Origin: Levilactobacillus parabrevis ATCC 53295
GTDB taxonomy: Bacteria > Bacillota > Bacilli > Lactobacillales > Lactobacillaceae
Reading direction: 5' to 3'
NCBI RefSeq assembly: GCF_001434055.1
Contig: NZ_AZCZ01000019.1
Span: forward strand, 1 to 45,719
Length of the DNA stretch: 45,719 nt
Shown here: in pieces, positions 3,225-10,217 of the stretch
Layout of the letters: every line of letters begins with the position of its first letter
Numbering within the stretch: position 1 is the first letter of the stretch
Made by a program: the position numbers and the translations under genes
The notes under the pieces: model-generated
The model's input: only the letters and a program-made list of their open reading frames with translations
What the model was told of the DNA's origin: nothing
The model's database searches: none

Positions 3225-4601
3225 ATGTCCACTCAAAAATCAACGCAAAACATTATTCAAATCGCGCTGTTCCTGGTCGTCGGAGCCATTGCGCCCCTCC
3301 TAGATACCACCATGACCAACGTTGCCTTAGATACTATTATGAAGTCCCTGGGAGTTTCCGTCAACGCCGTTCAGTGGGTCACAACAAGTTATGTCTTAGC
3401 CTTGGGAATCGCCGTACCGGTTGCTGGTTGGGCCAGCAACTGGTTCGATGGCAAGCACCTCTATCTGGGGGCACTAGTCGTCTTCCTTATCGGTTCAGTG
3501 CTGTCTGGCTGGGCATCAACACTGCCCTTGCTAGTCATCGGTCGGATCGTCCAAGGGGCCGCTGCCGGTGTGATCATCCCCTTGATCACGACCCTAGTCG
3601 TCCAAGTCGCCGGTAGCGGTGGTCTGGGAAAGTTAATGGCCGTGGTTGGTATGCCGGCCGTTCTCATCCCTGTCCTAGGACCAACCATTGGCGGCTACTT
3701 GATTCAAGCACTCGACTGGCACTGGATCTTCTTCATCAATATTCCTCTAGTTCTGATTGCCTTAGTCTTATTGACCTGGAAAATGCCCGCCTTTCCTGCA
3801 CCAAAGCGAGGAAAGCGACTCGATTTCCCCAGTCTGGCACTACTCGCCGGACTCTTCACTTTCGCCATTATCGGCATCACGCGTTTCAGTACCGGTGATG
3901 GTCTGACCTCAACCAAGGTGCTGACACCGGTGATTGTGGCGCTCACTTGCCTCGTGGTCTATGTTCTCTACGCCTACTATCGACCAACTAAGGCCCTGGT
4001 TAGCCTTCAATTATTCAAATCGCCAACGTTCGATGCCTCGGTCATTATCCTGATGCTTTCCGGAATTGCGGTTAACGGTGCCATGTTCTTGTTGCCCCTC
4101 TACTTGCAAAATAGTCGTGGGCTGAGCGCTGTTTGGTCCGGGACCTATCTCATTGCCCAAGGTGTTGGCTTGTTGGTTTCTCGAAGTCAAATTGGTAAGC
4201 TGACCGATAGCATCGGCGCCCGGTGGGTGGTCCTCGGTTCCATTGCGATTGCCGTGATCGGAACGGTGCCATTCGTCTACTTCACAGCCACGACCAACGT
4301 ATGGTGGATCTTGATTGCCCTCTTTGTACGCGGAATTGGTCAAGGGGGACTGACCATTCCGGTTATGGCTGATAGCTATACGGGCGTCCCAAAGCCGCTG
4401 ATTGCCGAAGCCACAACGGCCACCCGAATGCTTCAAAATATTGGCGGGGCCATGGGAACCGCCGTGCTCGCCACGATTATTCAACACGAGGCACCGCACG
4501 TCGGGATGAACGCCGCTTACCAAACCGCCTTTATGTGGTCGGTCGGATTCATCGTTGCTACTGCCATTCCGGCTTGGTTCCTAAGTCACAGAAAGAATTA
4601 G
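3225..4601 (+). CDS. MFS multidrug efflux transporter, DHA2 (14-TM) type
   Basis: A 458-residue integral membrane drug:proton antiporter of the EmrB/QacA/LmrB type. Residues 12-30 form TM1, followed by the motif LDTTMTNVALDTIM typical of DHA2 pumps (LDxTxVNVALP). WVTTSYVLALGIAVPVAGW covers TM2-3, GRIVQGAAAG is motif B in TM4, and GPTIGGYLI is the antiporter motif C in TM5. AACTCAGGTGATTCT precedes the ATG. It is somewhat short for 14 TM segments (usual length about 470-500). It is divergent from a TetR gene with a shared operator, the classical drug-inducible arrangement. Substrate not predictable. Confidence 0.88.
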   Translation: MSTQKSTQNIIQIALFLVVGAIAPLLDTTMTNVALDTIMKSLGVSVNAVQWVTTSYVLALGIAVPVAGWASNWFDGKHLYLGALVVFLIGSVLSGWASTLPLLVIGRIVQGAAAGVIIPLITTLVVQVAGSGGLGKLMAVVGMPAVLIPVLGPTIGGYLIQALDWHWIFFINIPLVLIALVLLTWKMPAFPAPKRGKRLDFPSLALLAGLFTFAIIGITRFSTGDGLTSTKVLTPVIVALTCLVVYVLYAYYRPTKALVSLQLFKSPTFDASVIILMLSGIAVNGAMFLLPLYLQNSRGLSAVWSGTYLIAQGVGLLVSRSQIGKLTDSIGARWVVLGSIAIAVIGTVPFVYFTATTNVWWILIALFVRGIGQGGLTIPVMADSYTGVPKPLIAEATTATRMLQNIGGAMGTAVLATIIQHEAPHVGMNAAYQTAFMWSVGFIVATAIPAWFLSHRKN

Positions 4602-4687
4602 ACATTAATCTCAAAATTTAATGCCGTGCTAATGCCTGTCGCACTGGTATTTACAGATAACAGCCAATCGTCAAATTGAAATTAGGC

Positions 4688-4716
4688 TTGACATCTCATC
4701 TAATTTTAATTATTGT
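4688..4716 (+). promoter_or_regulatory. Promoter of the liv leader and operon
   Basis: Consensus -35 TTGACA (4688-4693), a 17-base spacer and -10 TATTGT (4711-4716). Transcription would start near 4723, about 45 bases before the leader ORF and about 320 bases before livJ. Confidence 0.8.
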
Positions 4717-4766
4717 AGGACACATCAACTAAACCAAAACAAAACTTTTGAAAGCGAGGGATCTTC

Positions 4767-4865
4767 ATGATGACAATGCAAACAGAACAACCAACTAAAA
4801 TGATGACGACCCTCGCTATTCAAAACGCAGCCTTATTATTAACGAAGAAGGACCCGGTTACTTGA
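4767..4865 (+). CDS. Leader peptide with a Leu-Leu-Leu run
   Basis: A 32-codon ORF (ends AALLLTKKDPVT) preceded by GCGAGGG six nt before the ATG. Codons 23-25 are three consecutive TTA leucine codons at 4833-4841. The stop codon is itself part of a hairpin (ACTTGA 4860-4865 with TCAAGT 4887-4892, inner TTGAG/CTCAA). The ORF lies between a strong promoter and a terminator hairpin, upstream of a branched-chain amino-acid transporter, which is the layout of leader-peptide attenuators of leu/ilv genes. Starts at codon 2 or 4 are possible. The peptide itself probably has no function beyond being translated. Confidence 0.6.
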   Translation: MMTMQTEQPTKMMTTLAIQNAALLLTKKDPVT

Positions 4866-4895
4866 CCTTGAGCTAACACTCAAAATTCAAGTTCT

Positions 4896-4974
4896 GAGCC
4901 CTTCTTTCCCGTGTGGTAATGAGGGCTCGGTACACGTGTAAGACCTCATTCACCCAGTGGATGAGGTCTTTTTG
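4896..4974 (+). promoter_or_regulatory. Attenuator with competing hairpins and terminator
   Basis: Three stems compete. GAGCCC (4896-4901) pairs with GGGCTC (4923-4928). AATGAGG (4918-4924) can instead pair with CCTCATT (4944-4950), acting as antiterminator. AGACCTCAT (4941-4949) pairs with ATGAGGTCT (4961-4969), followed by TTTTT: a terminator upstream of livJ. The first and third stems are compatible with each other but not with the second. A 10-bp palindrome TACACGTGTA (4931-4940) lies between them. No T-box sequence (GGGTGGNACCGCG) is present. How ribosome position selects the fold cannot be settled by eye. Confidence 0.6.
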
Positions 4975-5000
4975 TTAGTTCGAAGGAGGATCGTTAGCAA

Positions 5001-5039
5001 GTGCGCACCATTAAAACACAATTTAGAAAGCGGGAATGA
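5001..5039 (+). other. Possible 12-codon GTG minicistron before livJ
   Basis: A strong AAGGAGGA (4983-4990) lies 11 nt before a GTG that opens a 12-codon frame ending TGA at 5037-5039, three bases before the livJ start. It could couple translation into livJ. Alternatively the Shine-Dalgarno site is a relic or serves nothing. Confidence 0.2.
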
Positions 5040-5042
5040 CAT

Positions 5043-6239
5043 ATGATCAAATGGCAGAAAAACATGGTAAAAATCGGGGCCCTCGCAACAATCGTTCTGG
5101 CACTCGCAGGTTGTAGCACGGCAAAGTCTAACGGTAGTGGTCAAGGCAACAATCCCGGCAAGACCATCAAAATTGGGGTCAACATGGAGCTCTCCGGCTC
5201 AGCCGCTGGCTATGGTCAACAGCAGAAACAAGGGATTCAATTAGCCGTTAATAAGATTAATAAGGCCGGTGGTATCAAGGTCGGTAACACCAAAAAGAAG
5301 ATTCAATTGGTAGTCCGTGACAACAAGACGTCCAACACCACTGCCGCATCAGTTGCCGCCCAATTGGTTAATAATGACAAGGTCGTCGCCGTGGTTGGCC
5401 CGGCAGCGACCAACGCCGGCACCGCATCGATTCCCAACATGACCAAGGCACAAGTGCCATCCGTCAGTCCCTCCGCAACCGATCCTGGCTATACACTGCA
5501 GAAGAATGGTGCTGTCCAGAAATACATTTTCCGCGCTTGCTTCCAAAATAACTTTCAGGGTTCATCCGCAGCAAAGTTCATGACCAGCAATTTGAAGGCT
5601 AAGAACGTCGCCATTCTGACAGACAATTCCAGTGACTACGGTACTGGGCTGACCAAGGCATTCAAGCAGACCTACACCGGCAAAGTGGCCAGCAGTCAAA
5701 CCTTCCAAGAAGGCGACAAGGACTTCAACGCTATCCTGACGTCACTGAAACATAAGAAAATCGACGCCATTTATGCTCCAGGTTACTACTCAGAATTGGG
5801 GTTGATCATCAAACAAGCGCGCCAAGCCGGAATCAATGTTCCAATCGTCGGCAGTGACGGTATGGCCGATGCCAAGCTGGCCAAAATCGCTGGGAATTCA
5901 AATACCAACAATGTTTACTACACCACCCCATTCTCAACGAAGGCGGGTGAGACCAACACCCTTGCAGCCGCCTTTCTGAAGACGTATCAAGCTAAGTACC
6001 ACACCACGGCCCCAACCTTCTCGGCGCTAGCTTACGACTCCGTCTACATGATCAAGTCCGCGATTGAAAGTGAAAAGTCCGCTAATTCTGTGAAGATTAC
6101 CGCTGGTTTGGCCAAGATCACCGACTTCAAGGGCGTTACGGGAACCATCACCATGAATAAGAACCACAATCCTGAAAAATCAATGACTATCGAAAAATTG
6201 ACTGACGGGACGGTCTCACAAGCATATACCGTTAAATAA
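5043..6239 (+). CDS. livJ: Branched-chain amino-acid ABC transporter, substrate-binding lipoprotein
   Basis: Periplasmic-binding-protein type I family receptor of the LIV (HAAT) transporter, 398 residues. The signal peptide ends in the lipobox LAGC, with Cys24 the predicted lipid anchor; a low-complexity linker (STAKSNGSGQGNNPGK) follows. The Leu/Ile/Val-binding fold starts at IKIGVNMELSGSAAGYGQQQKQG and continues through VVAVVGPAATNAG and APTFSALAYDSVYMIKSA. It binds the amino acid outside the membrane and delivers it to LivHM. It is first in livJHMGF-cbs, behind a leader/attenuator. The start has GCGGG 8 nt upstream. Exact specificity among Leu, Ile and Val is inferred from the family. Confidence 0.92.
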   Translation: MIKWQKNMVKIGALATIVLALAGCSTAKSNGSGQGNNPGKTIKIGVNMELSGSAAGYGQQQKQGIQLAVNKINKAGGIKVGNTKKKIQLVVRDNKTSNTTAASVAAQLVNNDKVVAVVGPAATNAGTASIPNMTKAQVPSVSPSATDPGYTLQKNGAVQKYIFRACFQNNFQGSSAAKFMTSNLKAKNVAILTDNSSDYGTGLTKAFKQTYTGKVASSQTFQEGDKDFNAILTSLKHKKIDAIYAPGYYSELGLIIKQARQAGINVPIVGSDGMADAKLAKIAGNSNTNNVYYTTPFSTKAGETNTLAAAFLKTYQAKYHTTAPTFSALAYDSVYMIKSAIESEKSANSVKITAGLAKITDFKGVTGTITMNKNHNPEKSMTIEKLTDGTVSQAYTVK

Positions 6240-6263: not shown

Positions 6264-7142
6264 ATGCAGACATTTGGACAACAACTGATCAACGGTCTCT
6301 CACTCGGTAGCATTTATGCATTGCTGGCACTGGGTTACACCATGGTCTATGGCATCATTAAGCTGATTAATTTCGCTCATGGTGACATCTACATGCTGGG
6401 TGCCTTCTGGGGCTACTTCGTGATCAACCAACTACACTTTAATTTTATTTGGGCCATGCTTTCCGCCATGATTTTCTGTGCCTTACTCGGCGTCGTTATT
6501 GAGTACTTCGCCTACCGGCCACTCCGCCACTCCCCTCGAATCACCGCGCTCATTACGGCAATCGGCGTTTCCTTCCTATTGGAGAATGGCATGACCTACC
6601 TATTCACGGCCAATACCCGGAGTTTTCCGCAAGTCATCAAGACCGTGACCTATCACCTCGGCGGCCTTCGAATCTCCAATATTCAACTTTTGATTCTCGG
6701 GACCGCTTGCCTGTTAATGTTACTCCTCGAGCTAATTATCAAACGTACCAAGATGGGCCGGGCCATGCGGGCAGTCTCCGTCGACCCCGAAGCCGCTCAA
6801 TTAGTCGGGATTAACATTAACCACACGATTTCCTTCACGTTTGCCTTGGGATCCGCAATGGCGGGTGCCGCCGGCGTTCTGATCGGACTGTACTACAATT
6901 CCATTGATCCATTAATGGGGATGACTCCCGGCATCAAAGCCTTTGTCGCCGCCGTTATTGGTGGTATCGGTTCAGTCCCAGGGGCGTCTGTTGGTGGTTT
7001 CTTAATTGGTCTGCTGGAGACCGGCGTTCAAGCTATTGGCTTATCCGCCTACAAAGATGCTGTGGTCTACTTCGTCCTGATTGTTATCTTATTGGTACTT
7101 CCAGCCGGGATCTTTGGGCATAAGACGAAAGAGAAAGTGTAG
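6264..7142 (+). CDS. livH: Branched-chain amino-acid ABC transporter permease LivH
   Basis: Inner-membrane permease of 292 residues, typical for LivH, with about eight hydrophobic segments. The opening QQLINGLSLGSIYALLALGYTMVYGIIKLINFAHGD is the LivH hallmark. The cytoplasmic coupling region RAVSVDPEAAQLVGININ is present, and the C-terminus holds GAVIGG-like segments (VAAVIGGIGSVPGASVGGFLIGLLE). ACGGAGG sits 6-7 nt before the ATG. It pairs with LivM to form the channel, powered by LivG and LivF. Confidence 0.93.
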   Translation: MQTFGQQLINGLSLGSIYALLALGYTMVYGIIKLINFAHGDIYMLGAFWGYFVINQLHFNFIWAMLSAMIFCALLGVVIEYFAYRPLRHSPRITALITAIGVSFLLENGMTYLFTANTRSFPQVIKTVTYHLGGLRISNIQLLILGTACLLMLLLELIIKRTKMGRAMRAVSVDPEAAQLVGININHTISFTFALGSAMAGAAGVLIGLYYNSIDPLMGMTPGIKAFVAAVIGGIGSVPGASVGGFLIGLLETGVQAIGLSAYKDAVVYFVLIVILLVLPAGIFGHKTKEKV

Positions 7143-7152
7143 GTGATTCCTC

Positions 7153-8112
7153 ATGAGAGCAAATTTTAAATATAACTTTTCCTGGCTGGCCGTCATGGTC
7201 ATCGGCTTTGTGGCGATTGACGCCTGCGAATTTCTCGGCATCATCAACGCTTTCATCGAAAACATGCTGGTCACCATTGGCATCAACATTATTCTAGCAA
7301 CCGGCTTGAATTTAATTATTGGTTTCTCTGGACAATTCTCACTCGGCCACGCCGGTTTTATGGCGATTGGCGCATATGCGACCGGAATCATGACCCAAAC
7401 TATTGCCACACCGTTGGGCTTCTATCTTTCTATGGTCGTCGGTATCGTCATCGCTATGATTGCCGCCCTAATCGTGGGGATTCCCACGTTACGCCTTCGT
7501 GGTGATTACCTAGCGATTGCCACCATGGGCGCTGCCGAAATCATTCGCATCCTGATCAATAACTTAAAGATCACGAACGGTGCGGCAGGACTCTTCAACA
7601 TCCCCCCATTAGTCACTTGGGCAACCGTCTACGTTCTGATGTGCCTCACCACCATTGTGACGGTCAACTTTATTCACAGTCGCAACGGTCGCGCCATCAT
7701 GTCGGTCCGTGAAGACGAGATTGCCGCCGAGGCCATGGGAATCAATCCCACGCGCTGGAAGTTAGCCGCTTTCGTCTTTGGCGCCGGCACCGCCGCGATC
7801 GGTGGTTCGCTCCACGCCGCCTACATCCAAACGATTGCGCCCGGTGATTTCAATATCATGGCCTCCATCGCCATCCTGATCATCGTCGTCCTCGGTGGTG
7901 TAGGTAGTATCACGGGGACCTTCGTTGCCGCCATCGTTTTGGGTGCCCTCGATACCATTCTGCAGAACTTCGGCACCTTGCGAATGATCATCTATTCGCT
8001 GGCCCTCATTCTAATTATGATCTTCAAACCTTCTGGCCTCTTAGGCAACTGGGAGCTGTCCTTCAAACATCTCGGCACGCACCAACGAAAGGAGCAATCC
8101 ATTCATGAGTAG
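7153..8112 (+). CDS. livM: Branched-chain amino-acid ABC transporter permease LivM
   Basis: Second permease subunit, 319 residues, multiple membrane segments. The family signature LNLIIGFSGQFSLGHAGFMAIGAYATG is at about residues 53-79, LRLRGDYLAIATMGAAEIIRI at about 115-135, and the EAA-like loop SVREDEIAAEAMGINPTRWKLAAF follows. It starts 10 bases after livH and overlaps livG by eight bases, indicating translational coupling. Confidence 0.93.
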   Translation: MRANFKYNFSWLAVMVIGFVAIDACEFLGIINAFIENMLVTIGINIILATGLNLIIGFSGQFSLGHAGFMAIGAYATGIMTQTIATPLGFYLSMVVGIVIAMIAALIVGIPTLRLRGDYLAIATMGAAEIIRILINNLKITNGAAGLFNIPPLVTWATVYVLMCLTTIVTVNFIHSRNGRAIMSVREDEIAAEAMGINPTRWKLAAFVFGAGTAAIGGSLHAAYIQTIAPGDFNIMASIAILIIVVLGGVGSITGTFVAAIVLGALDTILQNFGTLRMIIYSLALILIMIFKPSGLLGNWELSFKHLGTHQRKEQSIHE

Positions 8113-8887
8113 TCCCTTACTAACCGCACAACAAATCGTGAAGAACTTCGGTGGCCTGACCGCCGTTGCCAATGTCTCAGTCCACTTCGACCAGAACGAA
8201 CTTATCGGCCTGATTGGACCCAATGGCGCGGGTAAAACGACCCTGTTCAATTTACTCACCGGCGTCACCCCCGTAACCTCCGGTGCCATCAGCCTCTACA
8301 CCGATCAGGGCGTTCAATCCTTAAATGGCAAGCGCCCCGCTGAAATTGCGCAAGCCGGTCTCTCACGAACATTTCAAAACATTCGTTTATTCAAAGAACT
8401 CAGTGTCCTCGACAACGTACGCATTGCCATGACCAACCATTACCACGAAGGATTTCTCGCCAGTATCTTTCGCATCCCCAAGTTCTATCGCACTGAAGCC
8501 GACATGACGCTGGCTGCTCAGAAGTTACTCGCTATTTTTGACCTAACCAGCGTTGCCGACCAGCCGGCCAAAAACCTACCTTATGGCATTCAGCGGCGGC
8601 TAGAAATCGTCCGTGCCCTGGCAACCAAGCCCAAACTACTTTTCCTGGATGAACCGGCCGCCGGCATGAATCCGGAAGAAACTGCTGACTTAACCCGCTT
8701 GATTCGCCAGGTTCAGCGTGACTTTCACATCACGATTGTCCTGATCGAGCACGACATGTCCCTGGTCATGAACGTCGTCGAACGCCTCTACGTCTTGGAA
8801 CACGGCGCACTGTTGGCCGAGGGGACCCCCAACGAAATCCAACACAATCCCGCCGTTATTAAGGCCTACTTAGGAGGTGAAGCTTAA
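8105..8887 (+). CDS. livG: Branched-chain amino-acid ABC transporter ATPase LivG
   Basis: ATP-binding subunit, 260 residues. Walker A GPNGAGKT is at 38-45, the Q-loop/LivG insertion includes LSRTFQNIRLFKELSVLDNV, the signature is LPYGIQRRLEIVRAL (the LivG variant of LSGGQ), Walker B is LLFLDEPAAGMNPEE and the switch His is in LIEHDMSLVM. AAAGGAG precedes the start inside the end of livM. The stop overlaps the start of livF in TAATG. Confidence 0.95.
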   Translation: MSSPLLTAQQIVKNFGGLTAVANVSVHFDQNELIGLIGPNGAGKTTLFNLLTGVTPVTSGAISLYTDQGVQSLNGKRPAEIAQAGLSRTFQNIRLFKELSVLDNVRIAMTNHYHEGFLASIFRIPKFYRTEADMTLAAQKLLAIFDLTSVADQPAKNLPYGIQRRLEIVRALATKPKLLFLDEPAAGMNPEETADLTRLIRQVQRDFHITIVLIEHDMSLVMNVVERLYVLEHGALLAEGTPNEIQHNPAVIKAYLGGEA

Positions 8888-9591
8888 TGCTGTCAGTCAA
8901 AGATCTCGTCGTTAACTACGGTGCCATTCAGGCCATCAAGAAGGTGAGCTTTGAGATTCACACCGGTGAAATCGTAACCCTGATCGGAGCGAACGGTGCT
9001 GGCAAATCCACGATTCTTCATACAATTTCCGGTATCATGCGCCCCGTCAGTGGTCAGGTCACCTACTTAGATCGTCAGATTCAAAAGGTTGCAGCACCCA
9101 GGATCGTTCAAGCTGGCATCTCCCAGGTTCCCGAGGGCCGCCACATCTTCCCTGGACTTTCCGTACAGGAAAACCTACAGATGGGGGCTTTTCTCCGTAA
9201 AGATCGGCGCAGCATTGCGCAGGCCTACGAAGACGTCTACAACTACTTCCCGGTTCTCAAACAGCGGCGCCATCAGGATGCCGCCACGCTCTCCGGTGGG
9301 GAACAACAGATGTTAGCCATGGGCCGCGCCTTAATGGCCGCACCGAAACTGATGTTACTCGATGAACCCTCAATGGGATTGGCTCCCATCTTCATTAACG
9401 AAATCTTCGACATCATCCGGGCCATCAACGCCGCTGGCACTACAGTTCTATTGATCGAACAAAATGCTAACAAAGCCCTTTCCATCGCCGACCGTGGTTA
9501 CGTCCTCGCGTCCGGTGAAATTAAACTTAGTGGTACTGGCCAGGAATTGTTGGCCAATACGGCCGTACAACAGGCCTACTTAGGAGGTTAA
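8887..9591 (+). CDS. livF: Branched-chain amino-acid ABC transporter ATPase LivF
   Basis: Second ATP-binding subunit, 234 residues. Walker A is GANGAGKST, the LivF-specific SQVPEGRHIFPGLSVQENL follows, the signature is LSGGEQQMLAMGRAL, Walker B is LMLLDEPSMGL and the switch region is LLIEQNANKAL. The start overlaps the stop of livG by one base. Ends two bases before the CBS-ACT gene, whose AGGAGG is within the last livF codons. Confidence 0.95.
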   Translation: MLSVKDLVVNYGAIQAIKKVSFEIHTGEIVTLIGANGAGKSTILHTISGIMRPVSGQVTYLDRQIQKVAAPRIVQAGISQVPEGRHIFPGLSVQENLQMGAFLRKDRRSIAQAYEDVYNYFPVLKQRRHQDAATLSGGEQQMLAMGRALMAAPKLMLLDEPSMGLAPIFINEIFDIIRAINAAGTTVLLIEQNANKALSIADRGYVLASGEIKLSGTGQELLANTAVQQAYLGG

Positions 9592-9593
9592 CT

Positions 9594-10217
9594 ATGAGTG
9601 TAGCAGATTACATGAGTACTAAATTAGTCGTCATTACCCCGCAAACCACGGTTAGTGTCGCGGTTGAACTGATGAAAACCAACGAAATTCACCGACTCCC
9701 CGTTCTCGACGGCAACGCCTTAGTCGGTATCGTGACCCAAGGCATCATTGCCCGAGCCTTACCTTCACAAGCCACCAGCTTATCCGTGTATGAGACCAAC
9801 TACTTATTGACTAAGACGACCGTTGCCGACATCATGGAACGCCACGTTCAGACCATCCACGCTTCCGCCCAGTTAGAGGATGCCATTTATCAAATGCGCC
9901 AACACAAAATTGGTGTACTCCCCGTAATCCAAGCCGAACAGGTGGTAGGCATCATCACCAACAACGACATTCTCGATGCCTTTCTCAACATTTCGGGTTA
10001 CGGGGAACCTGGCATCGTCAGTCGTATTAAGGTCAACCACGACCACACGGGTGTCATCTTCCGTATCGGCCAGGTCTTAGCCGAACACGAGCTCAGTATT
10101 CAAACGTTAATGGTCGTTCGCGAGCAGCAGGAGCGGGTCATTGAGCTCCACATTGACAGTGACCAAGCAACGACTGTGAATCAGGTATTAGCAACTGCTG
10201 GCTTCGACGTTATTTAG
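9594..10217 (+). CDS. CBS-pair and ACT domain protein of the liv operon
   Basis: A 207-residue soluble protein: two CBS motifs (about residues 1-60, VADYMSTKLVVITPQTTVSVAVELM...LVGIVTQ, and 75-130, VADIMERHVQTIHASAQLEDAIYQM...VVGIITNNDIL) and then an ACT-like domain (about 140-207, GIVSRIKVNHDHTGVIFRIGQVLAEHELSIQTLMV). CBS pairs bind adenine nucleotides and ACT domains bind amino acids, so it is a plausible sensor that tunes LIV uptake to energy or amino-acid status. Its position as last gene of livJHMGF, two bases after livF, supports this. It resembles AcuB in layout, but acetoin metabolism is not suggested by context. Confidence 0.85.
   Translation: MSVADYMSTKLVVITPQTTVSVAVELMKTNEIHRLPVLDGNALVGIVTQGIIARALPSQATSLSVYETNYLLTKTTVADIMERHVQTIHASAQLEDAIYQMRQHKIGVLPVIQAEQVVGIITNNDILDAFLNISGYGEPGIVSRIKVNHDHTGVIFRIGQVLAEHELSIQTLMVVREQQERVIELHIDSDQATTVNQVLATAGFDVI

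Follow-up and report, generated by a model that had tools for sequence, protein, structure and literature searches.

In the leu attenuator of Escherichia coli and Salmonella, control codons lie within a leader open reading frame (ORF) and a stalled ribosome favours the antiterminator. Leader-peptide attenuators for the synthesis of branched-chain amino acids have been described in Staphylococcus aureus (PMC5794164) and Listeria (PMC5864092), others have been predicted for Lactococcus lactis, streptococci and corynebacteria (work cited in PMC6123439), and bacilli have His leaders (PMC2965389). Within the accessible portions of the open-access literature, for example PMC4833913 and PMC6123439, no description was found of a leader in front of the liv, leuA or leuB genes of Lactobacillaceae, and neither Rfam nor that literature yielded a catalogued RNA element that would place liv, leuA, leuB or bcat of lactobacilli under leucine control.

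The DNA analysed here, referred to as the window, is a stretch of 45,719 nucleotides from Levilactobacillus parabrevis ATCC 53295 and makes up an entire contig. Comparison and folding make it probable that the region in front of its livKHMGF genes is a leucine-responsive, ribosome-mediated transcription attenuator with a wiring of six strands.

The leader region and the operon behind it

The region contains a leader ORF with the codons TTA-TTA-TTA, a terminator and a competing antiterminator, followed by livKHMGF with a CBS-ACT gene; all features given below are on the plus strand. The upstream MFS gene ends at 4601. The consensus promoter proposed in a sequence-only reading of this DNA was found as the sigma-70-type site TTGACA-17-TATTGT (4688-4716), which has 10 of 12 matches. 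Promoter-grade sites are also seen by chance, the stretch having two against a mean of 1.5 in shuffles, and a similar site is kept, with small changes, in 10 of 10 aligned genus relatives. Conservation within the genus over 4688-4730, from the -35 box past the start, exceeds the promoter hexamers, and an operator may lie within this interval.

The leader ORF (4767-4865) has 32 codons, encoding MMTMQTEQPTKMMTTLAIQNAALLLTKKDPVT, and a GAGG about 8 nt upstream. It contains the three TTA control codons at 4833-4841 and its TGA stop (4863-4865) is within an ACTTGA/TCAAGT hairpin; the 32 codons, the TTA run and a stop inside a hairpin are as the sequence-only reading had them. At the leader Shine-Dalgarno site GCGAGGG (4754-4760) is complementary to CCCTCGC inside the leader ORF (4811-4817), the latter being kept in relative L002 and altered in the other genus relatives; such pairing could throttle leader translation.

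Six strands, numbered 0 to 5, were distinguished. Strand 0 (4829-4841), A-GCC-TTA-TTA-TTA, comprises the last base of one codon, then the Ala codon and the Leu control triplet, and pairs with strand 3. Strand 1 (4846-4857), AGAAGGACCCGG, covers the last leader codons and pairs with strand 2. Strand 2 (4891-4905), GTTCTGAGCCCTTCT, pairs with 1 or 3, and strand 3 (4914-4934), the TGGTAATGAGGGCTCGGTAC region, with 0, 2 or 4. Strand 4 (4941-4954) is the 5′ arm of the terminator and pairs either with 3, giving the antiterminator, or with strand 5 (4957-4970), the 3′ arm, giving the terminator. The terminator at 4940-4970 has 14 pairs with a T-run behind and is the only one found by a scan of 4400-5300. 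AATGAGG (4918-4924) in strand 3 is complementary to CCTCATT in the 5′ arm of the terminator, and the mutually exclusive folds claimed earlier are borne out; helices 0:3, 1:2 and 2:3, which are central to the six-strand switch, were missing from that description. The predicted fold of 4715-4985 has an energy of -87.2 kcal/mol against -56.1 (sd 4.4) for 200 dinucleotide shuffles, z = -7.1.

No Rfam 15 family, the T-box included, matched the window at gathering scores, in keeping with the earlier remark that the T-box core is absent, and none matched the 10 related loci. Relaxing the threshold to E 10 over 4600-5060 gave three weak matches to snoRNA and CRISPR families, which were dismissed as chance (best E 0.095). 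A plasmid search gave no match.

The first gene of the operon (5043-6239) encodes a branched-chain amino acid binding lipoprotein of LivK/LivJ type (PF13458, E 1.4e-55; best solved relative 4gnr), whose closest named relative, from L. fuyuanensis, is 98% identical. It is followed by LivH-type (6264-7142; PF02653, E 2e-51) and LivM-type (7153-8112; PF02653, E 4e-42) permeases and by ATPases of LivG type (8105-8887; PF00005, PF12399) and LivF type (8887-9591; PF00005), for which LivG and LivF respectively are the best NCBIfam models, each below its cut-off. Directly 3′ of livF is a gene for a CBS domain protein (9594-10217; PF00571, E 1.3e-28) with a weak ACT match below cut-off; the protein may be a ligand-binding regulator. 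The short ORF has a run of codons for an amino acid handled by the operon behind it, as judged from a predicted leader and a downstream LIV transporter, and mutually exclusive terminator and antiterminator helices, both kept in relatives, stand before the first gene.

The leader in Levilactobacillus and other Lactobacillaceae

Used as a DNA query, the window's leader region turned up in 10 of 35 genus genomes, and these are also the 10 in which a protein search detected this LivK; among the sequence comparisons this genus search is the least biased evidence of conservation. In the oriented genus alignment TTATTATTA is present in 10 of 10. Two relatives, L009 and L010, have an in-frame deletion of 3 nt, exactly one codon, after the run, and the leader frame therefore holds.

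LivK relatives were found in 111 of 397 family genomes, and upstream DNA was inspected at 121 liv loci, 10 from the genus and 111 others, with five tandem downstream copies left out. A leader with a branched-chain run is present at 91 of the 121. Seventy-seven of these fit a pattern of at least three Leu codons, then a GGA strand, then an AGCCC-like strand, and 14, which are less certain, were recognised by eye among the 44 loci not fitting the pattern; of these 14, L132 has Ile codons in its run, and the runs of L124 and L148 are mixed. By pattern and reading no such leader was seen at 30 of the 121 loci. At two of these, L039 and L129, the contig breaks off; the remaining 28 belong to LivK copies with 44-57% identity, though some copies in that range do carry a leader (five g16 loci and L148). 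Of the 17 genera examined, 14 have leaders. For a further, separate collection of named genomes a looser pattern fits 38 of 39 loci, with the caveat that at L064 the site fitted is not the leader, which is seen elsewhere in the locus; the contig of the 39th ends too soon. The liv loci L161-L164 and L167 of genus g16 have a different leader, MQNMNQKQNSSQALLLLLML-like, outside the alignment.

The control triplet of the 79 annotated loci is Leu in 78 and Ile in one, a count biased by the patterns, which require Leu runs. TTA is used three times in 49 loci, TTG three times in 19, CTA three times in four and other Leu mixtures in six. From the first Leu codon (Leu1) to the GGA of strand 1 the distance is 16-17 nt in 69 of the 79, approximately that to the front of a ribosome. 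Dereplication left 57 sequences of the 75 annotated ones used for folding, from 13 genera, as alignment A1; 56 of them use synonymous Leu codons for control and one uses Ile codons. At the second positions of these codons T faces G in 110 of 171 cells, where C would pair better, and C faces G in one; the retention of T opposite G fits a coding constraint. After the run the commonest residues use a single codon (AAG 43/43, GAC 44/44, CCG 31/32 in the 57 sequences) and in 10 of the 79 loci the leader reads through the strand 1 GGA in a different frame, so this part of the leader looks to be held as RNA. Conservation of AGGACC for the sake of the peptide was rejected on the same frame shifts, and because the stop overlaps GGA in L115 and L123. 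In Lacticaseibacillus the leader of L070 stops early (...LALLLNT) and that of L076 is apparently frameshifted before the run, with AGGACCC kept in both.

The residues before the run, Q-[N/D]-L-A at codons -4 to -1 (window 4821-4832), are also conserved across the 57 loci. Q occurs at -4 in 44 (CAA 34, CAG 10), L at -2 in 50 with six codons used, and Ala directly before the run in 44, always as GCC; the window's own residues are Q-N-A-A. The Q before the run is unexplained by simple codon starvation.

Pairing was assessed in A1 with strand regions that had been drawn with the model already in mind. Cells are paired in 91.1% for 0:3, 96.9% for 1:2, 80.7% for 2:3, 88.7% for 3:4 and 95.3% for 4:5. 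Cells changed on both sides number, against the shuffled mean, 35 against 14.1 (0:3), 20 against 3.5 (1:2), 12 against 4.0 (2:3), 26 against 12.5 (3:4) and 51 against 13.1 (4:5). When a partner was slid by 1-3 columns the paired percentage, the changed-cell count and the covariation score all fell for every helix. Counts of double-change pairs and of further pair types are less inflated by relatedness. By these stricter measures 0:3, 1:2, 2:3 and 3:4 are not above shuffles, while 4:5 exceeds them for double-change pairs, 9 of 500 shuffles reaching the observed value. The covarying stems sought by the sequence-only reading are therefore seen as an excess of compensated cells in all five helices, but only 4:5 rises above shuffles under the stricter counts.

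In a swap test native partners paired better than those from other genera in 10 of 13 genera for 0:3, 12 for 1:2, 10 for 2:3, 11 for 3:4 and 13 for 4:5. The control pairings 0:2, 0:4, 1:3, 1:4 and 2:4 favoured the native partner in 4, 4, 8, 5 and 5 of the 13. Native 0:3 was no better than foreign in g1, the genus of the window, or in g20 and g37, nor was native 2:3 in g22, g3 and g33. Control of branched-chain amino acid uptake by translation of the leader, as the sequence-only reading had suggested, is well supported by the conserved frame, the control codons that are Leu synonyms and once Ile, and the excess of compensated stem pairs.

Predicted folding as a function of ribosome position

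The effect of a ribosome was modelled by masking the leader up to the ribosome front and folding the remainder, the first free base being 16 nt after the start of the P site, with 14 and 18 also tried. For the window's leader with the transcript ending at 4957, helix 3:4 has 8.4 pairs when the A site is at Leu1 and 0.3 or fewer in the 11 other states. When the transcript ends at 4962 the second Leu codon also yields 7.0 pairs of 3:4. The 0:3 helix with 1:2 nested inside wins if there is no ribosome, and 2:3 wins with a ribosome near the stop. If the transcript ends at 4944 or 4952, 2:3 prevails in the Leu1 state as well, and once strand 5 is complete the 4:5 terminator prevails wherever the ribosome stands. 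For the model to hold, the order of folding must therefore govern the choice, within a short decisive stretch. A stall at the third Leu codon would cover strand 1 as well, which makes the first one or two Leu codons the likely sensors.

The same procedure was applied to 75 of the 79 annotated liv leaders, three having no terminator according to the finder and one having been mis-picked. The switch was measured at a single transcript length just before strand 5; an earlier measure, the maximum over transcript lengths, was too lenient and was dropped as many leaders were high in every ribosome state. The mean number of 3:4 pairs is 4.75 with the ribosome ten codons upstream, 10.9 at two codons before Leu1, 10.6 at Leu1, 7.1 two codons after it, 5.6 five codons after it, 6.25 at the stop and 4.95 without a ribosome. 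The Leu1 state exceeds the ribosome-free state by over 2 pairs in 44 of the 75 and the stop state in 39, the reverse being seen in 2 and 4. Strict switching, with Leu1 above both states, is found in 32 of the 75, from 9 of 13 genera; setting the front at 14 gives 36, and at 18 it gives 28. Among the failures, 21 leaders are not off when untranslated (at least 10 pairs), 19 are not off at the stop and 12 have fewer than 4 pairs at Leu1. In the window's genus five leaders (L001-L005) switch and three (L006-L008) fail to; in L009 and L010, which are not off when untranslated, 3:4 decreases only at the stop. The six-strand wiring suits the window's leader well and, on average, many of its relatives, but some relatives do not conform to it. 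Its least general part is the untranslated-off arm, which many relatives do not have.

Shuffling strands 0 and 1 or the middle of the leader flattened the mean profile over ribosome positions. The switch-like fraction, defined as Leu1 above no ribosome and above five codons later, a test similar to the strict one and not identical with it, fell from 46.7% in the 75 native leaders to 9.2% with strands 0 and 1 shuffled and 4.2% with the middle shuffled (600 per control). In the window's leader, and by the strict test in 32 of the 75, the position of the ribosome at the control codons decides the computed fold: the six strands are present and conserved, and predicted 3:4 pairing depends on where the ribosome stands.

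A covariance model built from A1 with helices 0:3, 1:2 and 4:5, and with the sequence of 3:4 included and its helix left out, matched 128 of 397 family genomes at E 1e-3 (102 also reach 1e-5 by our own count) and 42 of 395 order genomes, of which 11 lie in one other family (f5) at 1e-5. Weak matches are not trusted, the terminator palindrome alone scoring E 0.002 on the minus strand of the window. Fifty-three matches, nearly all of them not before liv, were read individually and the next gene was assigned by reading, with one or two per target type verified with Pfam or NCBIfam. The next gene is leuA in 36, leuB in 7, bcat in 2, an iron-alcohol-dehydrogenase-like gene in 3, a family-3 solute-binding protein in 2, OppA-like in 1 and an f5 LivK in 1; one match, L258, was spurious on reading. 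Most leuA and leuB leaders end in LLL followed directly by the stop, and five Ile codons are found in both bcat leaders and in that of the f5 LivK. In L227, L231 and L235 a leader with QALLMLSIKDPIII precedes the iron-containing alcohol dehydrogenase-like gene, an unexpected target (verified for L227). The Lactobacillaceae LeuA at L228:881-2050 has 390 residues, as does that of L245, and has no allosteric LeuA_dimer domain, which is present in L217 of another family; given the missing domain in L228, the attenuator may be a main leucine control.

Folding was carried out for 44 of the 53; seven identical leaders were dropped, L226 and L258 were unannotated, and L225, with a mis-picked frame, was kept in. 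Without a ribosome the mean number of 3:4 pairs is 6.6; with one at the first, second and third control codon it is 12.2, 11.8 and 7.6, and with one at the stop 5.4. On average, then, these leaders, most of them before leuA or leuB, do switch. Sixteen of the 44 are not off when untranslated, 4 stay on at the stop, and in L221 no 3:4 helix forms in any state. As helix 3:4 was absent from the model that found these leaders, the test is partly independent.

Proposed mechanism, rival explanations and known systems

Transcription would start near 4723 and the leader would be translated while it emerges. When leucine is plentiful the ribosome would reach the stop and mask strand 1, the freed strand 2 would take strand 3 and the 4:5 helix would terminate transcription before liv. 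If the leader is untranslated, 0:3 would form with 1:2 nested inside, and 4:5 would again terminate. When charged tRNA-Leu is scarce the ribosome would stall with the first, perhaps the second, Leu codon in the A site, masking strand 0 and leaving 1 free. Helix 1:2 would then hold strand 2, strand 3 would take strand 4 and RNA polymerase would read into livKHMGF. We infer that such a switch operates in cells, that the choice is kinetic and that leucine is the signal.

The simplest alternative is a plain two-state attenuator in which only 3:4 and 4:5 are functional and sequence conservation yields 0:3, 1:2 and 2:3 as mere by-products. Classical leaders have four strands (trp scheme, PMC1183508), many relatives have no untranslated-off state and the three extra helices do not exceed shuffles by the stricter counts; set against this are their excess of compensated cells, their better native pairing and the flattening of the ribosome-position profile when strands 0 and 1 or the middle are shuffled, which leave the two-state reading unlikely. 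The preservation of Q at -4 (44/57; CAA 34, CAG 10) and L at -2 (50/57; six codons) as amino acids, together with QN before the Ile runs of another family (L214-L216), could instead point to nascent-peptide arrest, with Q-[N/D]-L-A-L-L-L stalling the ribosome beyond the slowing at Leu codons and perhaps sensing free leucine or another small molecule. Such arrest is quite improbable, as the leuA and leuB leaders that were read have no QN before the run, the run may be Ile (L132; L214-L216) and the residues after it are variable or cut short.

An ordinary terminator of the MFS gene with constant, unregulated read-through would account for a sole terminator in 4400-5300 behind a gene ending at 4601, but a conserved promoter-like site lies between that gene and the terminator and similar leaders stand before branched-chain amino acid genes behind other upstream genes (L214, L216, L217), making this explanation very hard to sustain. 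A T-box or metabolite riboswitch controlling the operon, with the ORF accidental, might be expected from the frequency of T-boxes at amino-acid genes of Firmicutes (PMC2494555). The lack of any Rfam match in the window or the 10 related loci, the frame-preserving deletion and the synonymous Leu changes make the chance of this close to negligible.

It is somewhat more probable than otherwise that the leader belongs to an uncatalogued Lactobacillales family, a double-protector switch that reads Leu and sometimes Ile codons. In such a switch the antiterminator strand could be held either by the control codons or by a second strand, so that the operon is on only with a ribosome at the first control codons and off with an untranslated or a fully translated leader; the family would serve uptake (liv, perhaps peptide transport) as well as synthesis (leuA, leuB, bcat). 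If so, liv, leuA, leuB and bcat would share a testable common rule in food and gut bacteria, classical attenuation could be wired such that untranslated and fully translated leaders both stop transcription, and the leader family would supply natural swaps of specificity from Leu to Ile. Such a leader could then also be a compact leucine sensor in lactobacilli.

Two catalogued RNAs come near by name or host. The Rfam leu-phe leader RF01743 of Lactococcus lactis is likewise an amino-acid leader RNA and comes from another lactic acid bacterium, but identity with it was rejected: none of 295 order genomes is over its cut-off (3 weak matches lie below it) and the window's genome has none, while one of 14 control genomes, L. 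lactis, is over it. The livK motif RF01744 is linked to livK by its name; it comes from Pseudomonadales, another phylum (PMC2864571), and no Rfam match was found at the liv leader.

The described attenuators are closer in principle. The S. aureus ilvD attenuator (PMC5794164), also from a Firmicute, likewise has a Leu-rich leader peptide, a terminator and Leu-dependent attenuation; compared by description, it differs in serving a biosynthetic operon and in an antiterminator model that keeps the terminator stem and pairs the U-tail. Rli60 of Listeria monocytogenes ilvD (PMC5864092) is likewise ribosome-mediated with branched-chain amino acid codons, and its start-codon and ribosome-binding-site mutants lower ilvD transcription, as is predicted for an untranslated liv leader; by its description it differs in a 13-residue peptide, segments numbered to 4 and a biosynthetic operon. 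The trp attenuator of E. coli and Salmonella likewise has control codons in a leader ORF and a stalled ribosome that favours the antiterminator. The sequence-only reading held that the mechanism might be new. This is likely to apply to the wiring, with its two ways of holding the antiterminator strand, which differs from the trp scheme, and not to the principle, which is likely that of classical ribosome-mediated attenuation. In trp the moving ribosome blocks the antiterminator II:III (PMC1183508), whereas in the liv leader a ribosome that has reached the stop would cover strand 1, releasing strand 2 onto strand 3.
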